DNA of 64,000 bases from IMG/VR virus record IMGVR_UViG_3300036781_000236, positions 23,999 through 87,998 of that record. One strand, 5' to 3'. Positions 120 to 50,036 of the stretch are shown in pieces. The translations under genes and the position numbers were made by a program. This stretch comes from a virus. The notes under the pieces are model-generated. The model saw only the letters and a program-made list of their open reading frames with translations. It ran no database searches and was not told where the DNA came from. The stretch's first letter is position 1. Each line of letters begins with the position of its first letter.

Positions 120-123
120 AAGG

Positions 124-735
124 CGGCGGGAGTGGGATTCGAACCCACGCACCCCGAAGGGCCTAGCGCGCTAGCAACAGAAGTCTCTCTAAGAGACACA
201 CTCAAGCGTGTAATCATTGATCTTACGAACTACCAGAAGATTTCGTGTAATCTCAGCGTGGTGATTCGGACAAATAGCAAACATGTTACCTACCTCGTAT
301 TTACCGCCGTCTTTACCAGGAACAAGCCTATGGATATCAAAGGTTTTAGAATACTCGCACCCTTCAATCATGCAATATGTGAAGAGAAACCTTTCTGACA
401 AAAAATCTAAACGGCGTGTTGAATCATTTCTTGCTGGACGTTCTCTACCTCTTGTTGGTCTTTGTCGCTTAGCGACACAACTCTTACTACAAAACCGTGA
501 CTTTTTTGAAAAGGGCGAAAACTCCTTATCGCAATTCTCACATCTCTTCGTTGGGAGACGGCGTCGCAACCCATCGCATGCCTTTGAGCAATAGACATTT
601 CGGCTAATGACTAACTGACTAGGACGCCTATAAATAGGCGTACTACATACCGAGCACACAGTATTGGGTGTTCTCATCGTCTGCTGTGCCATAGTGTTTC
701 AGCCGTGCCCTCTTGAACCACTTGAGTACCCCGCC
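124..735 (-). tRNA. class II tRNA gene split by an HNH gene
   Basis: Two tRNA halves face each other about 0.5 kb apart. The 5' half (735 down to about 700) has acceptor GGCGGGG, TA, and a CTC/GAG D stem with AAGTGGTTCAA loop, as in bacterial tRNA-Tyr. The 3' half (about 180 down to 124) has a class II variable arm (CCC-TTCG-GGG), T arm GTGGG-TTCGAAT-CCCAC and acceptor TCCCGCC, which pairs with all seven bases of the 5' half (one G-T). The anticodon arm cannot be rebuilt: the 3' strand of its stem is missing or replaced. The HNH gene at 189-692 fills the insert nearly completely, leaving no room for a separate intron core. Amino-acid identity is uncertain (Tyr-like 5' half, but the 3' half alone can be read GCT). 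It may be non-functional. Confidence 0.6.
189..692 (-). CDS. HNH endonuclease inserted in a tRNA gene
   Basis: 167 residues. Two Cys-rich treble-clef-like zinc motifs fill the N-terminal half (CSVC...YCSKAC and CENC...FCSKSC). A C-terminal HNH core contains DIHR and CPNHHAEI. This is a homing-type endonuclease that would cut an uninterrupted copy of its target. The DNA is AT-richer than its surroundings, which suggests recent arrival. The start codon is only about 10 nt after the last recognisable tRNA base; a GAGGG in the tRNA D arm is the nearest possible ribosome site. The stop lies in a 6-bp hairpin (GTCTCT-TAG-AGAGAC) just before the second tRNA half. Confidence 0.8.
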   Translation of the reverse strand: MAQQTMRTPNTVCSVCSTPIYRRPSQLVISRNVYCSKACDGLRRRLPTKRCENCDKEFSPFSKKSRFCSKSCVAKRQRPTRGRERPARNDSTRRLDFLSERFLFTYCMIEGCEYSKTFDIHRLVPGKDGGKYEVGNMFAICPNHHAEITRNLLVVRKINDYTLECVS

Positions 736-4464: not shown

Positions 4465-5430
4465 TCAGTCTGCCCCGTCGCATTTGATGTAACAACGGTC
4501 AACCAGAACCGCAGCGTGAATAGCCAGGTCGTAACTCACGACGTAATAGCGCTCGGCCCGGTAGGTGATGCTGTTCGGGACATTGTTCGTTGCTCCCATG
4601 CCGCGGTCGAGTGCTTCGCTCACGTTGTCCGGCTGCGTGAACAACTCCGAACGCCGGATATTGATCGCGCCGGTCGCGTAAATCCACTCCTGCGTACCTG
4701 ACGGCGCGGGGTGGTTCGCGGGATGGGACTCCTCCTGGTTCGCCAATGCGTACCCGAAGTCCGGGATCACGATGTTCCCGTTCAACGTGCGGATGTACCC
4801 AGCGCGGTTGTCGATACGGAACTGCCCCATGATCGTCGCCGCCGCCGGGGTCATGTGGATCACACCGAGCTTCCCCGACATGGCCGCGATGTAGTTCTCC
4901 AGGGTCGCCACACCGTTCACGACGCTGGTAGGTGTGTTGCCGAGCGGGAACGCGGTGTTCACACCATCCGCCAAGTGCGGGTTCGCGGGGATACGTGCCC
5001 CAGTCATAAACTCGTATGCGACAGCGGCACCATCCACCGCCGACAGGGCGACGTTGGCGCGGGCCTTGAACAACTCCTGCCCCTGGTCCCCGGCCCACGA
5101 CACACGAGCCGACGTACACGTCTCGGCAAGCCACACCGTCATCGCGCCGAACGTCGGGTTCTCCAACGTTTCGCCGAAGCCCTTCGTCGTCGCGACGCTC
5201 CCTGGTGCGCACGGGTCATACACGTCCCCCAAATCGGGCGGGTACGGGTACACCGCGACACCGTTGATCCAACGCTCCACACCGTCCGCGTCCACATCCG
5301 GTGTCACCAAGGTCACACCAGGTTCGCTCGCCGTCATCGCGGCCTGCAACAACCCGAACTGCTGCGGAACCGGAGCAGGTCCGTCAACGCGCCAGAGGGG
5401 GCCGAAACCGACGGTCTGGGTGCTGCTCAC
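4465..5430 (-). CDS. putative virion structural protein, capsid region
   Basis: 321 residues from a GTG at 5430, preceded by a G-rich ribosome site. A longer open frame starts at 5475 without one. It contains alternating beta-strand-like segments (ENYIAAMSGKLGVIHMTP, NIVIPDFGYALA, NSITYRAERYYVVSYDLAIH). The last resembles the penetrating beta strands at the end of HK97-fold subunits, but that is only an impression. It lies directly downstream of the major capsid gene, interrupted by an oppositely oriented HNH gene. It may be a second capsid-like or accessory shell protein. Confidence 0.45.
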   Translation of the reverse strand: MSSTQTVGFGPLWRVDGPAPVPQQFGLLQAAMTASEPGVTLVTPDVDADGVERWINGVAVYPYPPDLGDVYDPCAPGSVATTKGFGETLENPTFGAMTVWLAETCTSARVSWAGDQGQELFKARANVALSAVDGAAVAYEFMTGARIPANPHLADGVNTAFPLGNTPTSVVNGVATLENYIAAMSGKLGVIHMTPAAATIMGQFRIDNRAGYIRTLNGNIVIPDFGYALANQEESHPANHPAPSGTQEWIYATGAINIRRSELFTQPDNVSEALDRGMGATNNVPNSITYRAERYYVVSYDLAIHAAVLVDRCYIKCDGAD

Positions 5431-5552
5431 GTGGTCACCCCCGGAAGGGGTGTTGCGGCAGCCGCCCCGAACCATCCGGCCGCCGCAACCCTGAATCCAA
5501 CAAAGGATGCTTTCTCAAACAGAAAGAAACAGAAGCGGTGTGTGTTATAGTT

Positions 5553-5580
5553 GGGCCGTAGCGTTGACGCGCTACGGCCC
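5553..5580. terminator. perfect 11-bp hairpin upstream of an HNH gene
   Basis: GGGCCGTAGCG and CGCTACGGCCC form a perfect 11-bp stem with a 6-nt loop, 35 nt before the rightward HNH gene. It could be part of the HNH leader, or a leftward terminator shielding the following structural gene. A TATAGT box lies just upstream on the plus strand. Confidence 0.45.
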
Positions 5581-5615
5581 ATGCAGGCCAGTCCACCATC
5601 GAGAGGAACGAACCT

Positions 5616-6311
5616 ATGAGTAACCCTACCGGAATCTGCAAGTGCGGATGCGGACAGAAGACGACCGTCTCGGAGTACACGTGGGCCAAGTACGGCTACG
5701 TGAAGGGAGAACCGCGCGACTACCTCAAGGGTCACAGCGGACGTGGCAAGCGCTTGAGCGACCCGTCGAAGGATCTTCCCGTGAACCACAACGGCCTGTG
5801 CCTCTGCGGCTGCGGGGAGAAAACACCTATCGCGACCTACACAAATCGTCCCCTCGGGATCTACGAAGGCATGCCCGTTCGTCACATACGAGGACACCAG
5901 AGCAAGCAAAGAAAGAACCTTGAACGCTACAAGGTCACGAACACGGGATTCGAGACTCCATGCTGGCTTTGGACTGGACCCATCGACGTTCAGGGATACG
6001 GAAAGCATGGAGGACGTTCCCAAGTTGCTCACAAGGCAGTTTACGAGAGCATCCGAGGAACCGTTCAGCGTGGTCTTTTCCTTCATCACAAATGCGAACA
6101 GAAGTCGTGTGTGAACCCAGACCACCTCGAACCACTTTCTCGCTCCGAACATATGAGAGAGCACGCCTTGATGCGTATTTCTGAGGACAAGATCGAAGCT
6201 ATACGCCGTGACGTTTCCGGGGATATTCCCAGAGGAACCGCACGTCGAGTCGCTGAGAAACACGATGTCAGCTACGCACTTGTTTGGCGCATCTGGAAAG
6301 GTCAGAGGTAG
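5616..6311 (+). CDS. HNH endonuclease with two CxCGCG motifs and C-terminal HTH
   Basis: 231 residues. Two zinc motifs (CKCGCGQ about residue 9, CLCGCGE about 68) are each followed by VKGEP/YEGMP and RGHS/RGHQ signatures. The HNH core is LFLHHKCEQKSCVNPDHLEP (about 150-170). A C-terminal helix-turn-helix (GTARRVAEKHDVSYALVWRI) is absent from its relative at 1893. It sits in reverse orientation between the capsid gene and the next structural gene, so leftward late transcripts would be antisense to it unless terminated. The ribosome site is GAGAGGAACG. Confidence 0.85.
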   Translation: MSNPTGICKCGCGQKTTVSEYTWAKYGYVKGEPRDYLKGHSGRGKRLSDPSKDLPVNHNGLCLCGCGEKTPIATYTNRPLGIYEGMPVRHIRGHQSKQRKNLERYKVTNTGFETPCWLWTGPIDVQGYGKHGGRSQVAHKAVYESIRGTVQRGLFLHHKCEQKSCVNPDHLEPLSRSEHMREHALMRISEDKIEAIRRDVSGDIPRGTARRVAEKHDVSYALVWRIWKGQR

Positions 6312-11309: not shown

Positions 11310-13001
11310 CTATAGCAAGCCGAGCGCGATGAGTTCCGCGATCTCCGCCAGGTCACGGTCGTCCAACGGCTGCTCGCCGAGTCTGCGTGCCACCCACCCT
11401 GCGGGGAAGCCGCTCCCGCCGACACCAGCCGCCACAGTAGGGATCGGCGCTGGGATCGCGGTGAGGAGTGCTGCCAACGCGCCTTCCCCACCGAGCAGCG
11501 CAACCAGACGCTGGTACTCCGTCACCGTGACACTCAACGCACCCGCACCGGCGAGCGAGGCGACAAACCGCTGATACGGGGTGATCGTTGCGTTCAACGC
11601 CCCCGTGCCCATTAGGGACGCAGCGAACCGCTGGTACAAGGTCATCGACGCGGCGAGCGACCCAGCACCTACCATCGCGGCCGTGAACCGCTTATACGGC
11701 GTCACCGCAGCCGACAGAGCACCCACGCCTGCCAGTTGCGGAGCGAGCCGCTGATATGGCGTTACTGTCGCAGACAAAGCACCCGCGCCTGCGAGGGATA
11801 CGAGTATTTGAACGAGCGGGTTGTAGTCCACCGATGCCCACACGTTCGTGACACCAACCGCTTGAAGGTTGATCACGGACTGCAAATAGCCGATCTGCAT
11901 TGATGTGAGCGTCGCGGCTGTCCACGCGCCACCGTCCGGGTCCAGGTACGTGACCAACGGGTAGTACGACGCCCCTGGCTGTGTCGGGTTCGTCGTCCAC
12001 GTCACCGTGTTCGGAGCCAACGACGCCGACATAGCCTTCGTGCCACCACTTGTCTTCTCGATCTGCACCTTCACCGCCGCCGTCGCATCCGCACCAACAA
12101 GGTCAGCGATCCTGCCGCCAACGCACAGCGTGTTGATCGTGTCGAGTGACCCGACCCCAGACGCCCCGACCGCGAACAGGTCGCTCGCGTTCAAAACCGC
12201 AGACGCGTTATACGAGGTCGCGTCGTCCGGCGGCACCTCATTCACCCTAGTCCAGTTATTCGCTGACCCAGCCGTACCTCCCACTTGCACAGGGAACGTG
12301 TTGCTATCACCTGGCGCTGCGGGATGAAGATGGATGATCTTTCCCGGCCCGCACCACGAGTTCTGCACTGACCCTGTAGCGTCATTCACGGCAAGATCGT
12401 CTGCGTACATCACTCCCTGAGTTACTGTAGAGTTAGGCAATCCAACCTGAAATCTCGCCGTAGAACCAGCAACATTGTTAACACCAGACCCAATCACGAT
12501 TCCAGCCGTACCTGGATCGTTACCTGACGTTCCACAATCTGTATATCTCGCCTCATATGTACACGGAGAAACAGTGGCATCTACCTTGAACTCAATACGA
12601 TACCAATGTCCTACCTGAACAATACCGTTAGCGGTATTACCAATGATAGTTCCACCTGTCTGCTGCAAGAAAAGAGCGCCGTTTCCGTTAGTTGCAATGC
12701 TTCCCTGTGCTCCACCTCCTATCGCAGCCCATTGTGCAAATATCTTACGGTTTCCTCCCTCTGAAATAAGAGTGTCGAACAATACATATGCTCTAGAGTA
12801 GAAAACCGCGGATTGGTTCGTCTTAGCAAACGCCCAGTTGATTGTCTGAGCAGCACCAGAAGGCGCGAACTTCCAAGACGCCAGTCCTGACCGAACTTTT
12901 GCGGCTGTCGTAGAGATCGTTACACCAGCAGAAACGGTGTCTGCTTCAACACCTGCGGTGGCGCTCTGAAGTTCTGCTCCGCTTTGCAGGAGACGGGCCA
13001 T
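11310..13001 (-). CDS. fibre-like virion protein with 20-residue repeats
   Basis: 563 residues from an ATG with GGAGGGG upstream. The first about 230 residues look like a beta-sandwich (laminin-G/jelly-roll type: repeated strands, WYRIEFKVD, YADDLAVND). The C terminus has five to six 20-residue repeats of the form LAGAGALSATVTPYQRLAPQ. It is probably displayed on the virion (head fibre, decoration or tail-tip protein). Composition in the middle (12400-12950) is visibly lower in GC than the repeats, hinting at a composite origin. The binding target is unknown. Confidence 0.6.
   Translation of the reverse strand: MARLLQSGAELQSATAGVEADTVSAGVTISTTAAKVRSGLASWKFAPSGAAQTINWAFAKTNQSAVFYSRAYVLFDTLISEGGNRKIFAQWAAIGGGAQGSIATNGNGALFLQQTGGTIIGNTANGIVQVGHWYRIEFKVDATVSPCTYEARYTDCGTSGNDPGTAGIVIGSGVNNVAGSTARFQVGLPNSTVTQGVMYADDLAVNDATGSVQNSWCGPGKIIHLHPAAPGDSNTFPVQVGGTAGSANNWTRVNEVPPDDATSYNASAVLNASDLFAVGASGVGSLDTINTLCVGGRIADLVGADATAAVKVQIEKTSGGTKAMSASLAPNTVTWTTNPTQPGASYYPLVTYLDPDGGAWTAATLTSMQIGYLQSVINLQAVGVTNVWASVDYNPLVQILVSLAGAGALSATVTPYQRLAPQLAGVGALSAAVTPYKRFTAAMVGAGSLAASMTLYQRFAASLMGTGALNATITPYQRFVASLAGAGALSVTVTEYQRLVALLGGEGALAALLTAIPAPIPTVAAGVGGSGFPAGWVARRLGEQPLDDRDLAEIAELIALGLL
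11440..11800 (-). repeat. 60-bp tandem coding repeats
   Basis: Five to six tandem 60-bp units encode the 20-residue motif with core G-x-GAL-x-A-x-(V/I)-T-x-YQR. The units have diverged from one another (YKR, YQR; PY, LY, EY), so the array is not a recent expansion. Confidence 0.75.
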
Positions 13002-19401: not shown

Positions 19402-21066
19402 CTACTCCGCTTCCGCGTCGTCCCCGCTCATATAACCAAGCGTGCAACGACAGTTGATCACCGATCCCGCCTCACCGGATGGGTCACCTGGGAACATGAG
19501 CGAGTCGCCGTCCACGTCGAAAGGAGCGTCGAGGGGCTGCGTTTGTCCGTCAAGCCCGTCCACAAGTTCATGGCGCGGGTAGATAGCTCCCTCGGCGGTC
19601 ATCCACACCTTGCTTAGCTTCGAGTTCCCGCCGGTCGCGGCGTCAATGGCTTGTGTCGCGGCGAGGCTCCCGCCCCCTGTGGCCCCGGCGAGGGTGGTGC
19701 GGGCGATAGTGACAGCGCGGGTGTAAGACTGCTCGTTCATCCCTACCTGGATCGCCCTAGCGGTGTCCGGGATCGACAAGCCCTGGTCGTAGGACGCCTG
19801 CACGATCTTCGTGACGTTGTCCAACGTCGTCTGCGCGATGTTAGGGATCTGGCTCGCGGTGTTCGCGATCTCCTTCGCGACATACGGGTTGCTCACATCG
19901 AAGCTGACCCCTGCGCTTTCCAAACTGGCTTGTGTGACCGAACGAACCATCGCCTGCCGGACAGGCTCCGTCTTCGTGCGTAGCGAGAAGATCAGCGCAT
20001 CCACGTCCAGCATTTCGGCAGGGGCCGGGGCGCTCCACACGGGGTTACCGGCGGACGCCGCGTACAGATCAGCTTGGGCGTCGCGGAGGTTCGCCTTCGC
20101 CGCCTCAACATGCTCGGGGCTGCTTCCGTCGGATAGGGCGGTGCGGAGTTCGCCCTTAGCTTCCTCGACGGCCTTGTGGCGTGCCGCCAACTGCTCCGGG
20201 GTGAGCGTGGCGGGAGGCTGCTTCTTCGCGGCTGCGGCCGTCAACGGCAATCCCCCGGTGAGCGGCAGCGTGATCTCGACCTGGTCGCCCCGGACTACGT
20301 AGAGCGCATCGAACGTCAATGGAAGCCCGAACACCGTTGCGGTGTCGGGCGCGTCGGGTGTGCCAGTGGATGCGTGCGCTTCGAAGCCGTGGTCGCGGGC
20401 GTACTCGACCCCGTACTTCACCAGTGCCTGCGTCACCGCTACCCGCAGTTCGACCAGACCTGGTACGTCGGGAAGGAGGATGCCGATGGTGTCGCCGTCT
20501 GGTTTCCCGAACTCGCCGCTACCTGCCACCACACCCGTCAGGGGACCGCAGTTCGCAGCGACCAACCGCAATGCGTCACCAAGCATGTCGAGTGGCCCAT
20601 CGATCTCCCCGAGCGACGCCAATGTGACGTGCAGCATCCCCGCTGGGTCACCGCCAGGGACAGTGAGCGCAGCGGATTGCTCCGCAGTAGGTTTCAGACA
20701 AACCATCGTGCTCAACGGTGTCGGAGCCGCCGCCGTCAACGCCAATGACGCAACGAGCGACCGGACATCAGCGGGCGCGAGTCCTACGAGCGCCGCCATG
20801 TCCGCGTCCCGACGTGCCGAAGCGGTGAGGTGGTTCGTCACTGTCGCCGTGAAGTTCGCGGCTGCGTCACGGCCTGCTTTCCGCAGGATCGGTTCGAGCA
20901 CCTTCACCATCCGCGGCACCAGATCGTCGGCGCGCTTATACCCAGCCTGGATGACACGGTTGTGGTGCGCCGCCGATGGTGCGACAGGGACAGCCTTCTC
21001 TGGCTTCGGCTGCGTCGCTTCCACCGCTTCCGCGGTGGTCTCCTTGACGGAGCGGTACTCGGGCAT
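19402..21066 (-). CDS. MuF-like minor head protein with internal 2H phosphoesterase domain
   Basis: 554 residues (a TTG at 21078 is an alternative start). Residues about 125-270 form a 2H phosphoesterase domain of the 2'-5' RNA ligase type, with HVT (150-152) and HAS (235-237) spaced about 85 residues apart. A helical linker follows. The C-terminal third carries a MuF-like head-morphogenesis region (TRAVTIARTTL, then W-x-T..HELVDGLDGQ and a closing INCRCTLGYM). MuF proteins bind the portal and can enter the host with the DNA. The gene lies just downstream of the portal gene, as usual for MuF. Confidence 0.75.
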   Translation of the reverse strand: MPEYRSVKETTAEAVEATQPKPEKAVPVAPSAAHHNRVIQAGYKRADDLVPRMVKVLEPILRKAGRDAAANFTATVTNHLTASARRDADMAALVGLAPADVRSLVASLALTAAAPTPLSTMVCLKPTAEQSAALTVPGGDPAGMLHVTLASLGEIDGPLDMLGDALRLVAANCGPLTGVVAGSGEFGKPDGDTIGILLPDVPGLVELRVAVTQALVKYGVEYARDHGFEAHASTGTPDAPDTATVFGLPLTFDALYVVRGDQVEITLPLTGGLPLTAAAAKKQPPATLTPEQLAARHKAVEEAKGELRTALSDGSSPEHVEAAKANLRDAQADLYAASAGNPVWSAPAPAEMLDVDALIFSLRTKTEPVRQAMVRSVTQASLESAGVSFDVSNPYVAKEIANTASQIPNIAQTTLDNVTKIVQASYDQGLSIPDTARAIQVGMNEQSYTRAVTIARTTLAGATGGGSLAATQAIDAATGGNSKLSKVWMTAEGAIYPRHELVDGLDGQTQPLDAPFDVDGDSLMFPGDPSGEAGSVINCRCTLGYMSGDDAEAE

Positions 21067-21080
21067 CTGGACGCCCAACC

Positions 21081-23732: not shown

Positions 23733-24023
23733 CTATTCGTCCCGGCCGAACGCCTGATCGCGAGCGCGACGCAGGTGACGGATCAGGTCGTTGATCGCCT
23801 GCCGGTCAAGATCAACGTAGAAACCGCCCAGGCTGATTTCCCTAACGTCCGTTCCAGTGGCATCAGACATGACACGAACACCGTCTGCGCCTGTCTGCGC
23901 GTCGACACACTTACTCACGACTTGCACATACTGGTCGCGGTTCCAACGAACCTCGACTATGGCCTTGCGCGGGTCGTTCTCGTCAAAAGCCAGTGGGCTT
24001 CCGTACACGGATTCTTTGGGCAT
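23733..24023 (-). CDS. hypothetical protein
   Basis: 96 residues from an ATG with AAGGAGG upstream. Beta strands with conserved-looking Arg/Asp (AIVEVRWNRDQYVQVVSKCVD) precede a C-terminal helix (QAINDLIRHLRRARDQAF). Acidic/basic balanced. No family recognised. Confidence 0.65.
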   Translation of the reverse strand: MPKESVYGSPLAFDENDPRKAIVEVRWNRDQYVQVVSKCVDAQTGADGVRVMSDATGTDVREISLGGFYVDLDRQAINDLIRHLRRARDQAFGRDE

Positions 24024-43140: not shown

Positions 43141-43565
43141 GACGCACGCCCTGACTGAGGCGGGATCTTGTGGAAGGTCATCTTCTCGGCCGCGACCACC
43201 CAACGAAGATCGCCAGTGAGCGTGACTACATCGCTGTACGCGGGCTTGCCGTCTTCGCGGTCGCCCTCTTCCCCGATTGCGCCGGAGAAGGTCTTCGTCG
43301 TTCCGGCGGACTGGTACGGACAGGTGATCCGCCAAACACCGAACTCGTCGTACCGGATCGCGAGCACGGTCCCGTCTCCGAAGATCAGCCAGGTGTCCTG
43401 GTCGTCGCTGTCGGGGTTGAACTCCTCGCTGAGGCTTCCCTCGACCTCGATCAGATCGTCGGAGTATCCGTAGACGGTCACCGTGGACAGTCCGGGTGCC
43501 TCCACTACGGGCGTCGTGACGCCCTCCAAGCTGTTGCCCTGTTCGCTGTCTGTCTTCTCGTTCAC
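43137..43565 (-). CDS. beta-rich hypothetical protein
   Basis: 142 residues. Strands alternate through the middle (LSTVTVYGYSDDLIEVEGSL, DTWLIFGDGTVLAIRYDEFG, VWRITCPYQSAG). Coupled to both neighbours. No family recognised. Confidence 0.6.
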   Translation of the reverse strand: MNEKTDSEQGNSLEGVTTPVVEAPGLSTVTVYGYSDDLIEVEGSLSEEFNPDSDDQDTWLIFGDGTVLAIRYDEFGVWRITCPYQSAGTTKTFSGAIGEEGDREDGKPAYSDVVTLTGDLRWVVAAEKMTFHKIPPQSGRAS

Positions 43566-43693
43566 TGCTCACCCTCCAATGCTCGAAAATATTGGGAAGC
43601 CATCACGGATGGCTCGTAGTAGAACCCGCGCTCTTTATCCCACTTCGTTCCTGTCCAGTCCTCGTAACTGTCCAGCGAAGGCAAGGAACTCAT
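43562..43693 (-). CDS. small hypothetical protein after the tRNA-like elements
   Basis: 43 residues. The ATG directly follows the last base of tRNA-like element A. Aromatic and acidic (SYEDWTGTKWDKERGFYYEP). A longer frame continues through the structured element but is unlikely to be coding. Confidence 0.5.
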   Translation of the reverse strand: MSSLPSLDSYEDWTGTKWDKERGFYYEPSVMASQYFRALEGEQ

Positions 43694-43811
43694 GGAGCAG
43701 GGACAGTGGAGGAATCGAACCTCACCGCGGCCATGCATCACAGGCGGTGTCGAAGCCGCCGCATCCCTGCCGGGAAGGCGCAACCATGCGCGTCTGATCC
43801 ATCCCTGCTCC
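43694..43811 (-). ncRNA. tRNA-like element A
   Basis: 118 nt closed by a perfect 10-bp stem (GGAGCAGGGA/TCCCTGCTCC). It contains a T-arm-like GAGG-TTCGATT-CCTC hairpin and others (GCGC-ATGGTT-GCGC, TCCC-GGCA-GGGA, GGCGG-CTTCGACA-CCGCC). Between the T arm and the closing GGAGCAG/CTGCTCC is an acceptor-like pairing GGATGGA/ACTGTCC (six of seven). No standard anticodon loop can be assigned. Element B has the same length and the same 7-bp terminal stem. Confidence 0.5.
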
Positions 43812-43848
43812 ATCAACTCTCTCTTGGTGTAAGAACAGAAGGACTCAC

Positions 43849-43966
43849 GGAGCAGGCGGCGGCGGGATTCGAACCCGCGGGCTGGGGCACCCATAACCCC
43901 AGCAGAATCATCGACGGGTTGATCGAGTCTCCCGTTGTGGCCGCTTCGGGTACACCGCGCTGCTCC
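43849..43966 (-). ncRNA. tRNA-like element B
   Basis: 118 nt, ends GGAGCAG/CTGCTCC as in element A. Inside are a D-arm-like hairpin (TA-CCCG-AAGCGGCCACAA-CGGG), a hairpin TCGA..TCGA, a variable-arm-like CTGGGG..CCCCAG and a perfect T arm GCGGG-TTCGAAT-CCCGC. A GCGGTG/CGCCGC helix continues the terminal stem with one bulged C. D arm and T arm look genuine; the anticodon arm does not. It may be an altered or extended tRNA. Confidence 0.55.
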
Positions 43967-43986
43967 ATCAGTCCTCCACCCATCAC

Positions 43987-44205
43987 TTATGCCTGAGCCC
44001 GCATCTTCCGCGCCTCGCGCATGATCTTCCGTACAGCTGCGTTGTCGTAGGATTCGATGTCCCACTCCTCGCCGCCGTAGTCCTTGCAGAAGCGGTCGAT
44101 GAACTCCTCAGTGGAGAGCCGTTCGTCACCGAACCAGTCGAGGGTATTTAGGATCATCGGCTCCATTTCTGGGGTGATGTCCTCGGCTGTGGTGAGCACT
44201 CTCAT
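43987..44205 (-). CDS. acidic helical hypothetical protein
   Basis: 72 residues. The ATG is 8 nt from a TATACG box, so the message is probably leaderless. Predicted helical (ITPEMEPMILNTLDWFGDE, STEEFIDRFCKDYGGEEWDI). It heads the operon that includes the tRNA-like elements. Confidence 0.65.
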   Translation of the reverse strand: MRVLTTAEDITPEMEPMILNTLDWFGDERLSTEEFIDRFCKDYGGEEWDIESYDNAAVRKIMREARKMRAQA

Positions 44206-44213
44206 ACCCCCAT

Positions 44214-44239
44214 CGTATAGCAGGGTAGCGGCATGTCAA
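44214..44239 (-). promoter_or_regulatory. promoter of the 44.2-39.4 kb operon
   Basis: TTGACA, 14-bp spacer, extended -10 TGC-TATACG; ATG 8 nt on. The spacer is short, but the extended -10 may compensate. The flank GGTTGAGAC upstream matches the other promoters of this class. Confidence 0.7.
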
Positions 44240-44263
44240 GTCTCAACCTTAGGTCGAGGCCCG

Positions 44264-44277
44264 TCACGCGGGCGTGA
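44264..44277. repeat. 14-bp palindrome, copy 14
   Basis: Perfect TCACGC-GG-GCGTGA between the end of the endolysin gene and the promoter at 44239, which begins 24 bp further on. Confidence 0.8.
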
Positions 44278-44287
44278 CGGGCGTGGC

Positions 44288-48575: not shown

Positions 48576-50036
48576 CTAAAATGGGCCGCCGCGCGGGCGC
48601 ATATCCGACAGGCCAGTGCGTGGGTCTATCCCACGGATCTGACGACGAGGGACAGATGACCTAGCGGGTTGCTGCTGCGGCTTCCAAATCTCCAGTTCCG
48701 TCAGCGCCCACACCAACGCATCCATGCGGTCTGGGGAATCCGCTTCACCAGCCCACGTCGTCATCTCGTCCTCTAGATCCTCGAACACACCGACATGGTG
48801 AACCGACGGTGATGGGTTACCGTCACCGTCTTTGCGGTCATACAGCGTCGAGATCGGCTCCGCGCGTGTGCGTTTCCCACGCGACGCCGACACGAGCTTC
48901 ACCGGCACAGACGGATCAACTGCCTTGATCACCATCGAGACCATGTCACCGCCGTTGTTCTTCTCCGCAACGATATGGTCGGCTTTCCAGTCATGGTAGG
49001 CATCAACCGCCGCTTGCGACCACTCAGCCGGTCCACCGCGAACAATCGTGCGGTCAGCGAGCACATACCCATGCCGATCGCTATGACCCCTGCCGCACAC
49101 GATGATCCCGGCGCTGTCCGACGTTTCCCCGCTCGTTGCGTTCGGGTCAATTGCCACCACAATCCTGGACAGCGGCGGCTCCGCGATAACACGGCCCAGG
49201 TCGATCATCGCCCGGGTCCACAACGCGCCCTCTACGTCCTCCAACAGTTCCGCTTCGATCTCCTGCCGCCCCGTACGTGTCCCTTCCAGCGGTGCGACGA
49301 CGGTGTCCCACCACGACACCGCGAGGTTCTGTCGGTTCTCATATGACGAGCCGCGAACCACGACCAGCGAGCGATCAGGCATGCCGAGAACGTCACGGGT
49401 GAGTTTGTTCGTCTTCGGTGTCGAGGTCAGTACGGCCCGCGGACGCACACCGAGTCGCAGCCCAAGCTTCAGGTTCGACCATGTCGTCTCCAGCACATCG
49501 CCCTTGCGGGCATCATCCCAAGACGACACCTCCTCACCCCACACGTAGTGATGCTGCGGGCCACGCAAACGGTCAGGTGTCTCCGACGAGAACCCCTTGA
49601 ACATTGTGCCGTTCGCTAACGTCAACTCCATCAGCGTCTTGTTCCACGCAGCCTCCCTCGACTGACCGAACAGCGCCGCCGTCGGGATCACCGACAAAAG
49701 GCCAGTTTCGCCTTCCACCATCGTTGAGATCACGTCACCGCGAGTAGGAGCAACCAACGCGATACGGCACTCCTGCTCCACAGCGCGTTCCTTCACCCAC
49801 TGAGCAGCAGAAAGCGTCTTTCCGAATCCGCGTCCGCAAAGAAGAAACCAGAACATCCAGTCGCCATCCGGTGCTTGCTGCTTCGGACGACCAACAAACC
49901 TCCACGACCGCAGAAGCATCCCCTTCAAATGATCCGGGGACATGCCGTGCTTCCGTGCCTCCTCCGCGATCAGCGCCTCCCGCTCATGAGGAGGCAGAGC
50001 AGCAAGACGCTCCAGAGGGGATTCGCTGCCCGTCAC
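48576..50036 (-). CDS. terL: terminase large subunit
   Basis: 486 residues. Walker A CGRGFGKT (67-74), Walker B YVWGEE (164-169), coupling motif STP in LTSTPKTN (about 205), and RNase H-like nuclease residues beginning VVAIDPNAT (Asp about 297) with DRMDALVWALTEL near the end. This is the DNA-packaging motor and cutter that docks on the portal. It is transcribed with the small subunit upstream (4-nt overlap). The portal gene lies 25 kb away. Confidence 0.95.
   Translation of the reverse strand: MTGSESPLERLAALPPHEREALIAEEARKHGMSPDHLKGMLLRSWRFVGRPKQQAPDGDWMFWFLLCGRGFGKTLSAAQWVKERAVEQECRIALVAPTRGDVISTMVEGETGLLSVIPTAALFGQSREAAWNKTLMELTLANGTMFKGFSSETPDRLRGPQHHYVWGEEVSSWDDARKGDVLETTWSNLKLGLRLGVRPRAVLTSTPKTNKLTRDVLGMPDRSLVVVRGSSYENRQNLAVSWWDTVVAPLEGTRTGRQEIEAELLEDVEGALWTRAMIDLGRVIAEPPLSRIVVAIDPNATSGETSDSAGIIVCGRGHSDRHGYVLADRTIVRGGPAEWSQAAVDAYHDWKADHIVAEKNNGGDMVSMVIKAVDPSVPVKLVSASRGKRTRAEPISTLYDRKDGDGNPSPSVHHVGVFEDLEDEMTTWAGEADSPDRMDALVWALTELEIWKPQQQPARSSVPRRQIRGIDPRTGLSDMRPRGGPF

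Follow-up and report, generated by a model that had tools for sequence, protein, structure and literature searches.

Clamped tRNA-like elements downstream of a phage terminase gene and their predicted counterpart in Squashvirus

Introduction

The tRNA mimics known from bacteria are few, i.e., tmRNA and the Y RNAs. YrlA is an RNA of 90-150 nt with a large stem of paired 5' and 3' ends and a tRNA-like domain, and it is regarded as a tRNA mimic (PMC8394870), which has also been suggested as a possible competitive inhibitor of an anticodon nuclease (PMC7790460). In YrlA the module is permuted, with the order T arm, acceptor, D arm, and the stem takes the place of the anticodon arm. The occurrence of Y RNAs in mycobacteriophages is reported in a passage of PMC12282133 citing Chen et al. 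2014. A passage of PMC11455837, citing van den Berg et al. (eLife), describes phage tRNAs that resist the tRNA-cleaving defence of the host. Our literature search brought up no study of clamped tRNA-like RNAs from phages or of phage tRNA modules in permuted order, a result of little weight given its thin coverage of subscription papers.

Here we describe two tRNA-like elements, A and B, in a stretch of 64,000 nt (positions 23,999 to 87,998 of IMG/VR virus record IMGVR_UViG_3300036781_000236), hereafter the window, and compare them with tRNAs, tmRNA, Y RNAs and an un-annotated element of isolated phages.

Results

Locus and phage context

The window belongs to a virus record of 88 kb that has the tailed-phage genes for terminase, portal, major capsid and head-tail adaptor, and the best relatives of its terminase that we found are 58-59% identical. 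Elements A and B lie downstream of the terminase gene on the strand that also carries the portal gene (Table 1). No copy of either is present in these closest terminase relatives, no annotated phage record matched the 10-kb stretch around them at the DNA level, and a search for relatives through the proteins of the neighbouring genes found none. Judging from the promoter-like site at 44239-44212, A and B are presumably co-transcribed with the surrounding genes.

The inverted repeat TCACGCCCGCGTGA recurs in the window at 44260-44283, about 1685-1710 and 1-20, where it adjoins the promoter-like CTGCTATACGAT or CGTATAGC, and the two together may be a terminator-promoter module of the phage. A further gene (window 19402-21078, minus strand) encodes a head-morphogenesis-type protein, the N-terminal part of which matches phage RNA ligase families.

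Table 1. Features of the A/B locus in window coordinates, and the related element of Squashvirus
Feature	Position	Strand	Remarks
Terminase gene	48576-50036	(-), same as A and B	A and B ~4.6 kb downstream
Promoter-like site TTGACA-16-TACGAT	44212..44239	(-)	Ahead of the 72-aa ORF, B and A; consensus match only, 10/12
72-aa ORF	43985..44205	(-)	Upstream of B, same direction as B
Element B	43849..43966	(-)	118-nt tRNA-like RNA (predicted), likeness to tRNA clearest here; class II-type D arm, long variable-type arm, perfect T arm
B clamp, 5' strand ATGGAGCAG	43960..43968	(-)	Pairs with 43847-43855
B D-arm-like CCCG-AAGCGGCCACAA-CGGG	43931..43950	(-)	GCGGCC D-loop motif in common with Blab L119:2581-2717
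B, 27 nt at anticodon-arm position	43904..43930	(-)	No standard 5-bp stem and 7-nt loop in the sequence; no ARAGORN call
B variable-arm-like hairpin GCTGGGG...CCCCAGC	43881..43903	(-)	7 bp
B T arm GCGGG-TTCGAAT-CCCGC	43862..43878	(-)	5 bp; pairs changed on both sides relative to A
B clamp, 3' strand CTGCTCCGT	43847..43855	(-)	
Spacer, B to A	43812..43848	(-)	37 nt; start matches the 3' flank of A (TGAGT-CCTT)
Element A	43694..43811	(-)	118-nt tRNA-like RNA (predicted), core unlike that of B; T arm and several hairpins, weak tRNA-Sec likeness
A clamp, 5' strand ATGGAGCAG	43805..43813	(-)	Pairs with 43692-43700
A D-arm-like hairpin GCGCA-TGGT-TGCGC	43778..43791	(-)	5 bp, loop UGGU
A T arm TGAGG-TTCGATT-CCTCC	43708..43724	(-)	4 bp and one mismatch
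A clamp, 3' strand CTGCTCCAT	43692..43700	(-)	Final 2 nt supply the AT of the ATG of the next ORF
43-aa ORF	43562..43693	(-)	ATG directly after A; weak Pfam DUF7397 match, below cut-off
Squashvirus element	Blab MZ322018, 8080-8216 (= L119:2581-2717)		137 nt, un-annotated; also in Gazebo OP068337

A 15-bp clamp around two different cores

The initial annotation described two minus-strand elements of exactly 118 nt, 37 nt apart, with the termini GGAGCAG/CTGCTCC and with the start codon of the next gene directly after A, all of which was confirmed on the sequence. It also described a terminal stem with an acceptor-like helix inside it; the helix is present, but the stem was drawn too short, as it comprises 15 bp in each element and reaches 2 bases beyond the reported ends. 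Its strands read AUGGAGCAG and CUGCUCC(A or G)U. In A, 15 consecutive standard pairs extend outward from the T stem after a 1-nt linker, and in B 15 pairs do so with one bulged C; the helix consists of an inner 7-bp acceptor-like stem and an outer 8-bp pairing of leader and trailer. The 3' end of both RNAs is predicted to lie inside this helix, and four of the seven acceptor pairs differ between A and B on both sides with the pairing kept. Among 750 ordinary tRNAs (the distinct ARAGORN tRNAs from the loci fetched for analysis), leader and trailer form no more than 2 bp outside the acceptor stem in 747, and 3 bp or more in only three; since ordinary tRNAs are almost without such pairing, the 8 bp of A and B are beyond chance.

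Inside the clamp the elements differ, as had been noted when a simple duplication was denied. The whole elements align with a score of 70 (shuffles 53.3 ± 5.8), while the cores, with the 7-nt ends removed, score 47 (shuffles 46.5 ± 5.4), and the view of the cores as alignable copies was rejected because their whole-core alignment stays at shuffle level. What A and B have in common are the ends and about 10 nt of flank (TGATGGAGCAG ... CTGCTCC(A/G)TGAGT(T)CCTT). A and B are a constant clamp around different cores. The T arm with a TTCGAnT loop that had been assigned to each element is there, with a proper T-loop in both, and A has two further hairpins besides this arm and its D-arm-like hairpin. 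Both fold more stably than shuffled sequences (z -2.36 for A and -3.01 for B); in unconstrained folds the T arm misses the lowest energy by about 1 kcal/mol in both, so it is supported by its motif and by the co-variation given below, not by energy.

Comparison with tRNA and tmRNA

ARAGORN found no tRNA and no tmRNA in A or B, its two tRNAs of the window being elsewhere, and at the gathering score Rfam returned nothing in either element, with tRNA-Leu as its sole match in the window. The missing calls are not a general failure of the programs on this phage, as these detect the ordinary tRNAs of the phage just upstream of the window. At relaxed threshold, A matched tRNA-Sec with 22.6 bits, where the gathering score is 47, and B matched the tmRNA model only in an 18-nt fragment of the T arm. 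Ordinary tRNAs scoring well inside the elements, named beforehand as the outcome that should overturn the annotation, were thus found by neither ARAGORN nor Rfam. The judgement that the elements are too long for tRNAs agrees with their 118 nt and with scores below the tRNA thresholds over the whole molecule, and that of a lacking normal anticodon arm with the sequence and folds, in which neither has a 5-bp stem with a 7-nt loop. The suggestion of precursors with extended acceptor stems is correct as to the anatomy, but nothing indicates maturation into tRNAs. The annotation also offered RNase P decoys and regulatory RNAs, either of which may apply.

B resembles class II tRNAs (Ser, Leu, Tyr; RF00005) in its D arm, variable-type arm and T arm, and the weak match of A is a likeness to tRNA-Sec (RF01852); both elements differ from these tRNAs in having no anticodon stem-loop, sub-threshold scores, the 15-bp clamp and a length of 118 nt. 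With the tRNA-like domain of tmRNA (RF00023) they share the T-arm consensus and the missing anticodon arm, but the proposal of tmRNA-like parts fails, since the Rfam match is confined to the 18 nt of the T arm and ARAGORN found neither a tmRNA nor a tag frame. Two further candidates were rejected, namely A as tRNA-Sec, on account of its mere 22.6 bits, and A as a permuted tRNA, for which GGACAGT about 20 nt downstream complements ACTGTCC after the T stem and no convincing D arm follows.

A tRNA-Ser(gct) gene in the window (122-735, minus strand) is apparently split by an insert of about 526 nt with an HNH-like ORF (189-692), beside which there is little space for a group I ribozyme. Upstream of the window, an HNH-type ORF follows a tRNA 5' half (GGAGCCGTAGCGTAGTGGCAGCGCATGCTCCTTTCC) at about 5281-5760 of locus L109 (minus strand), and no 3' half to match it turned up in the record.

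A co-varying element in Squashvirus

A search with B gave weak matches in the un-annotated gap between terminase and portal of the Microbacterium phages Blab and Gazebo, which are isolated, sequenced Squashvirus phages. The Blab element follows the plan GTAGCA-GGGGTCG ... GCGGGTTCGAGTCCCGC-CGGCCCC-TGCTAC, has the GCGGCC D-loop motif and a long arm of about 58 nt at the anticodon position, and is separated from the terminase gene by one gene and a tRNA-Gln. The helices of A, B and the Squashvirus element share one register of seven acceptor pairs followed on the outside by AGCA/UGCU, and A and B likewise have the 5-bp T stem (with one mismatch in A) and the location downstream of the terminase gene. 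Besides this clamped acceptor helix, the likeness covers the GCGGCC D-loop, the T arm, the replaced anticodon arm and the post-terminase position; the Squashvirus element differs in its 137 nt, another core and a single copy, and it belongs to no named family.

Co-variation was assessed on three sequences (A, B and the Blab element) with both stem strands excised by hand; the 3' stem strand of Blab had been selected by the search, whereas the pairing of its 5' strand had not. Standard pairs fill 96.7% of the cells of the stem alignment, and 8 of 20 pairs are changed on both sides, compared with a mean of 2.7 in shuffled alignments and a count of 8 in none of 500 shuffles. When the stem strands were slid against each other, only 0 or 1 pairs were changed on both sides. 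This computation shows that the clamp and T stem of A and B are conserved and co-vary with those of the Squashvirus element, and the matching element in a laboratory-grown Microbacterium phage argues that A and B are real structured RNAs.

A second hairpin, CCCCCC(G/A)TACCGGTTCGACCGGG(C/T)GGGGG, lies just before the Squashvirus element (L119 about 2553-2585, and L227) and has a compensatory change between Blab and AluminumJesus.

Natural variants and wider searches

In AluminumJesus a short loop closes the same clamp sequence, with no tRNA core (GTAGCAGGGGCCAG-TTCTTCGGC-CTGGCCCCTGCTAC), and the whole block is missing from Rudy, Squash and OneinaGillian. Judging from these sequences, the core is dispensable in AluminumJesus and the clamp can exist without it. 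The 3' clamp strand of Squashvirus overlaps the promoter-like CTGCTACGCT, which may be a promoter; because it is kept in Rudy, where the element is missing, the common UGCU may have another cause.

A pattern search for the same ends in viral contigs gave seven matches, which were set aside as apparent chance matches in coding sequence. The wider pattern AGCAG...T-loop...CTGCT retrieved a few long clamped elements (L275, L331, L311/L330, L268); as AGCAG/CTGCT and the length were selection criteria, these do not count here as independent evidence. Their contigs yielded no TROVE gene, and in a scan of genome contigs with the wider pattern no candidate passed the helix test.

Comparison with Y RNAs

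A and B resemble YrlA (RF02553), the RNA associated with Rsr/Ro60, as non-coding RNAs of ~100 nt with a long stem of paired ends, here 15 bp, and with T and D arms lacking a working anticodon. They differ in that the order runs from D to T, the stem prolongs the acceptor and no Rsr was found; in B, the D arm precedes the T arm and the acceptor is continuous with the basal stem, which is not the module order of YrlA. Neither A nor B matched a Y RNA model, and for YrlA this held up to E = 10. No TROVE/Rsr gene was found in the 88-kb record, which may be a fragment, nor in Blab (complete genome according to its deposition, 62 kb), Gazebo or AluminumJesus. The elements share the plan of Y RNAs and may work in a like manner, but fail the tests of family match and module order, and we do not class them as members.

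In the record L010, a relative whose terminase is 59% identical, the region after the terminase gene (L010 13520-16087) contains an Rsr/Ro60 (TROVE) gene, preceded by an array of permuted tRNA-like units with GCGCTGGGCCG...CGGTTACC and CTCGCCCGCGC in common. In these units the T arm stands before the D arm, one is closed by UUCG, and there is a sub-threshold YrlA match; they are probably phage Y RNAs. L111 (900-1580, minus strand) has four similar tRNA-like units, mostly permuted, in a frame unlike that of L010: each stands between paired strands with recurring ATAAC, TACAAAC and CAACTT motifs. YrlA was matched there below threshold, with 29.1 bits, and the L111 record yielded no TROVE gene.

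Discussion

A and B appear to be tRNA-derived non-coding RNAs that are unlikely to decode. In the anatomy that we propose, the acceptor stem would be lengthened into the 15-bp clamp by base pairs between 5' leader and 3' trailer, and the anticodon arm would be replaced. From what is known of tRNA biology, such a clamp should hinder RNase P cleavage and CCA addition, and RNAs with no anticodon should not decode. We suggest, with a probability of roughly 0.4, that they function as tRNA mimics, which would be made during infection and would occupy a tRNA-handling protein, the candidates being RNase P, a tRNA-modifying enzyme, a tRNA-cleaving defence nuclease or an exoribonuclease, while the clamp would mark and protect their ends. 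This reading is supported by the common register of the helix, the co-variation and the near absence of such pairing from ordinary tRNAs, by the un-annotated element of Blab and Gazebo together with the similar location of A and B downstream of the terminase gene, and by the fact that no tRNA was called in either. YrlA, a known tRNA mimic suggested to inhibit an anticodon nuclease (PMC7790460), lends further support. The defence-resistant phage tRNAs, in the account given by PMC11455837, are likewise phage-encoded RNAs of tRNA type with an altered anticodon region, but they are decoding tRNAs with anticodon-loop changes. The mimicry is weakened by the clamp without a tRNA core in AluminumJesus, by the weak likeness of the core of A to tRNA and by the overlap of the Squashvirus 3' clamp strand with CTGCTACGCT.

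The same observations lend themselves to a cis-acting role in the mRNA, as processing sites (for RNase III on a stacked helix of ~20 bp, or for RNase P) or in translation control of the flanking genes, which we consider possible though on the whole doubtful. What stays constant is the clamp, which A and B have in identical form with unrelated cores inside, and AluminumJesus retains it when the tRNA core is gone, which is why we weight such a role not far below mimicry. It would also fit the position of the pair inside an operon after a promoter-like site, and the end of A at the ATG, where its clamp extends over the A and T of the next start codon. For such a role, however, a simple hairpin would suffice, yet the T-loop and T stem persist with co-variation, and B retains a D arm.

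It is unlikely that A and B are decaying class II tRNA genes with degenerated anticodon arms and a chance pairing of leader and trailer. The resemblance of the D arm, variable-type arm and T arm of B to tRNA-Ser/Leu/Tyr and the presence of other broken tRNA genes in the phage would suit decay, but decay should cost stem pairing, and in both copies the 15-bp helix is perfect or nearly so and has pairs that are changed on both sides. The same anatomy in another phage genus also argues against it.

Returning to RNAs that mimic tRNA, we advance only as a speculation, itself improbable in this full form, that A, B and the Squashvirus element might constitute an undescribed class of phage non-coding RNA with a constant clamp and exchangeable tRNA-like cores, i.e., a non-permuted counterpart of Y RNAs with no phage Rsr, serving as a decoy for host proteins that handle or cleave tRNA. 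That they are an actual form of Y RNA, with the clamp as a basal stem bound by Rsr/Ro60 and the core as a non-permuted tRNA-like effector domain, we consider quite improbable: the general plan of YrlA (PMC8394870) fits, and in a relative whose terminase is 59% identical an Rsr gene and permuted tRNA-like units lie next to the terminase gene, but A and B have no YrlA or Y RNA match and a module order unlike that of YrlA, and no TROVE/Rsr gene was found in the record, which may be a fragment, in Blab, Gazebo or AluminumJesus, or in the contigs with similar elements.

It is very improbable that A and B are functional tRNAs whose anticodon arm holds an intron-like insert and whose precursor stem is unusual. 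The anticodon arm of ~58 nt in the Blab element does look like a tRNA with an insert, a 109-nt element in locus L018 reaches 44.4 bits with 42 nt where the model has 11, and an HNH gene apparently splits another tRNA gene of the phage; against this, no anticodon stem-loop can be recovered from A or B, the clamp would block maturation, and we know of no mechanism for removing such short tRNA inserts in bacteria. A chance resemblance of coding sequence to tRNA is hardly credible, as the open frames that traverse each element from ATGGAGCAG, both beginning ATG GAG CAG, have codon-position G+C without the low second position typical of the neighbouring genes, and the pairing, co-variation and T-loop motifs in place argue against it.

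If the mimicry is real, a phage element with the elbow of tRNA, no anticodon and zipped ends would be a tool for asking what tRNA shape does on its own; if A and B are only processing or control elements, they would represent an unusual phage route for building tRNA parts into operons. Elements of this type are invisible to current annotation, and with a homologue in a Microbacterium phage that has been isolated and sequenced, tests of expression and deletion are already feasible.

Other clamped elements also came to light. The 135-nt elements at L311 11600-11734 and L330 348-482 (both minus strand) have T-arms and a core resembling CGCACGGTNATACTAGNTAARTCCGGGGAA in common, and with a -10-like box just upstream they are possibly another small RNA family. 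L225 is rich in structured, partly tRNA-like units at 11900-12700, among them a 110-nt clamped element at 12244-12353.
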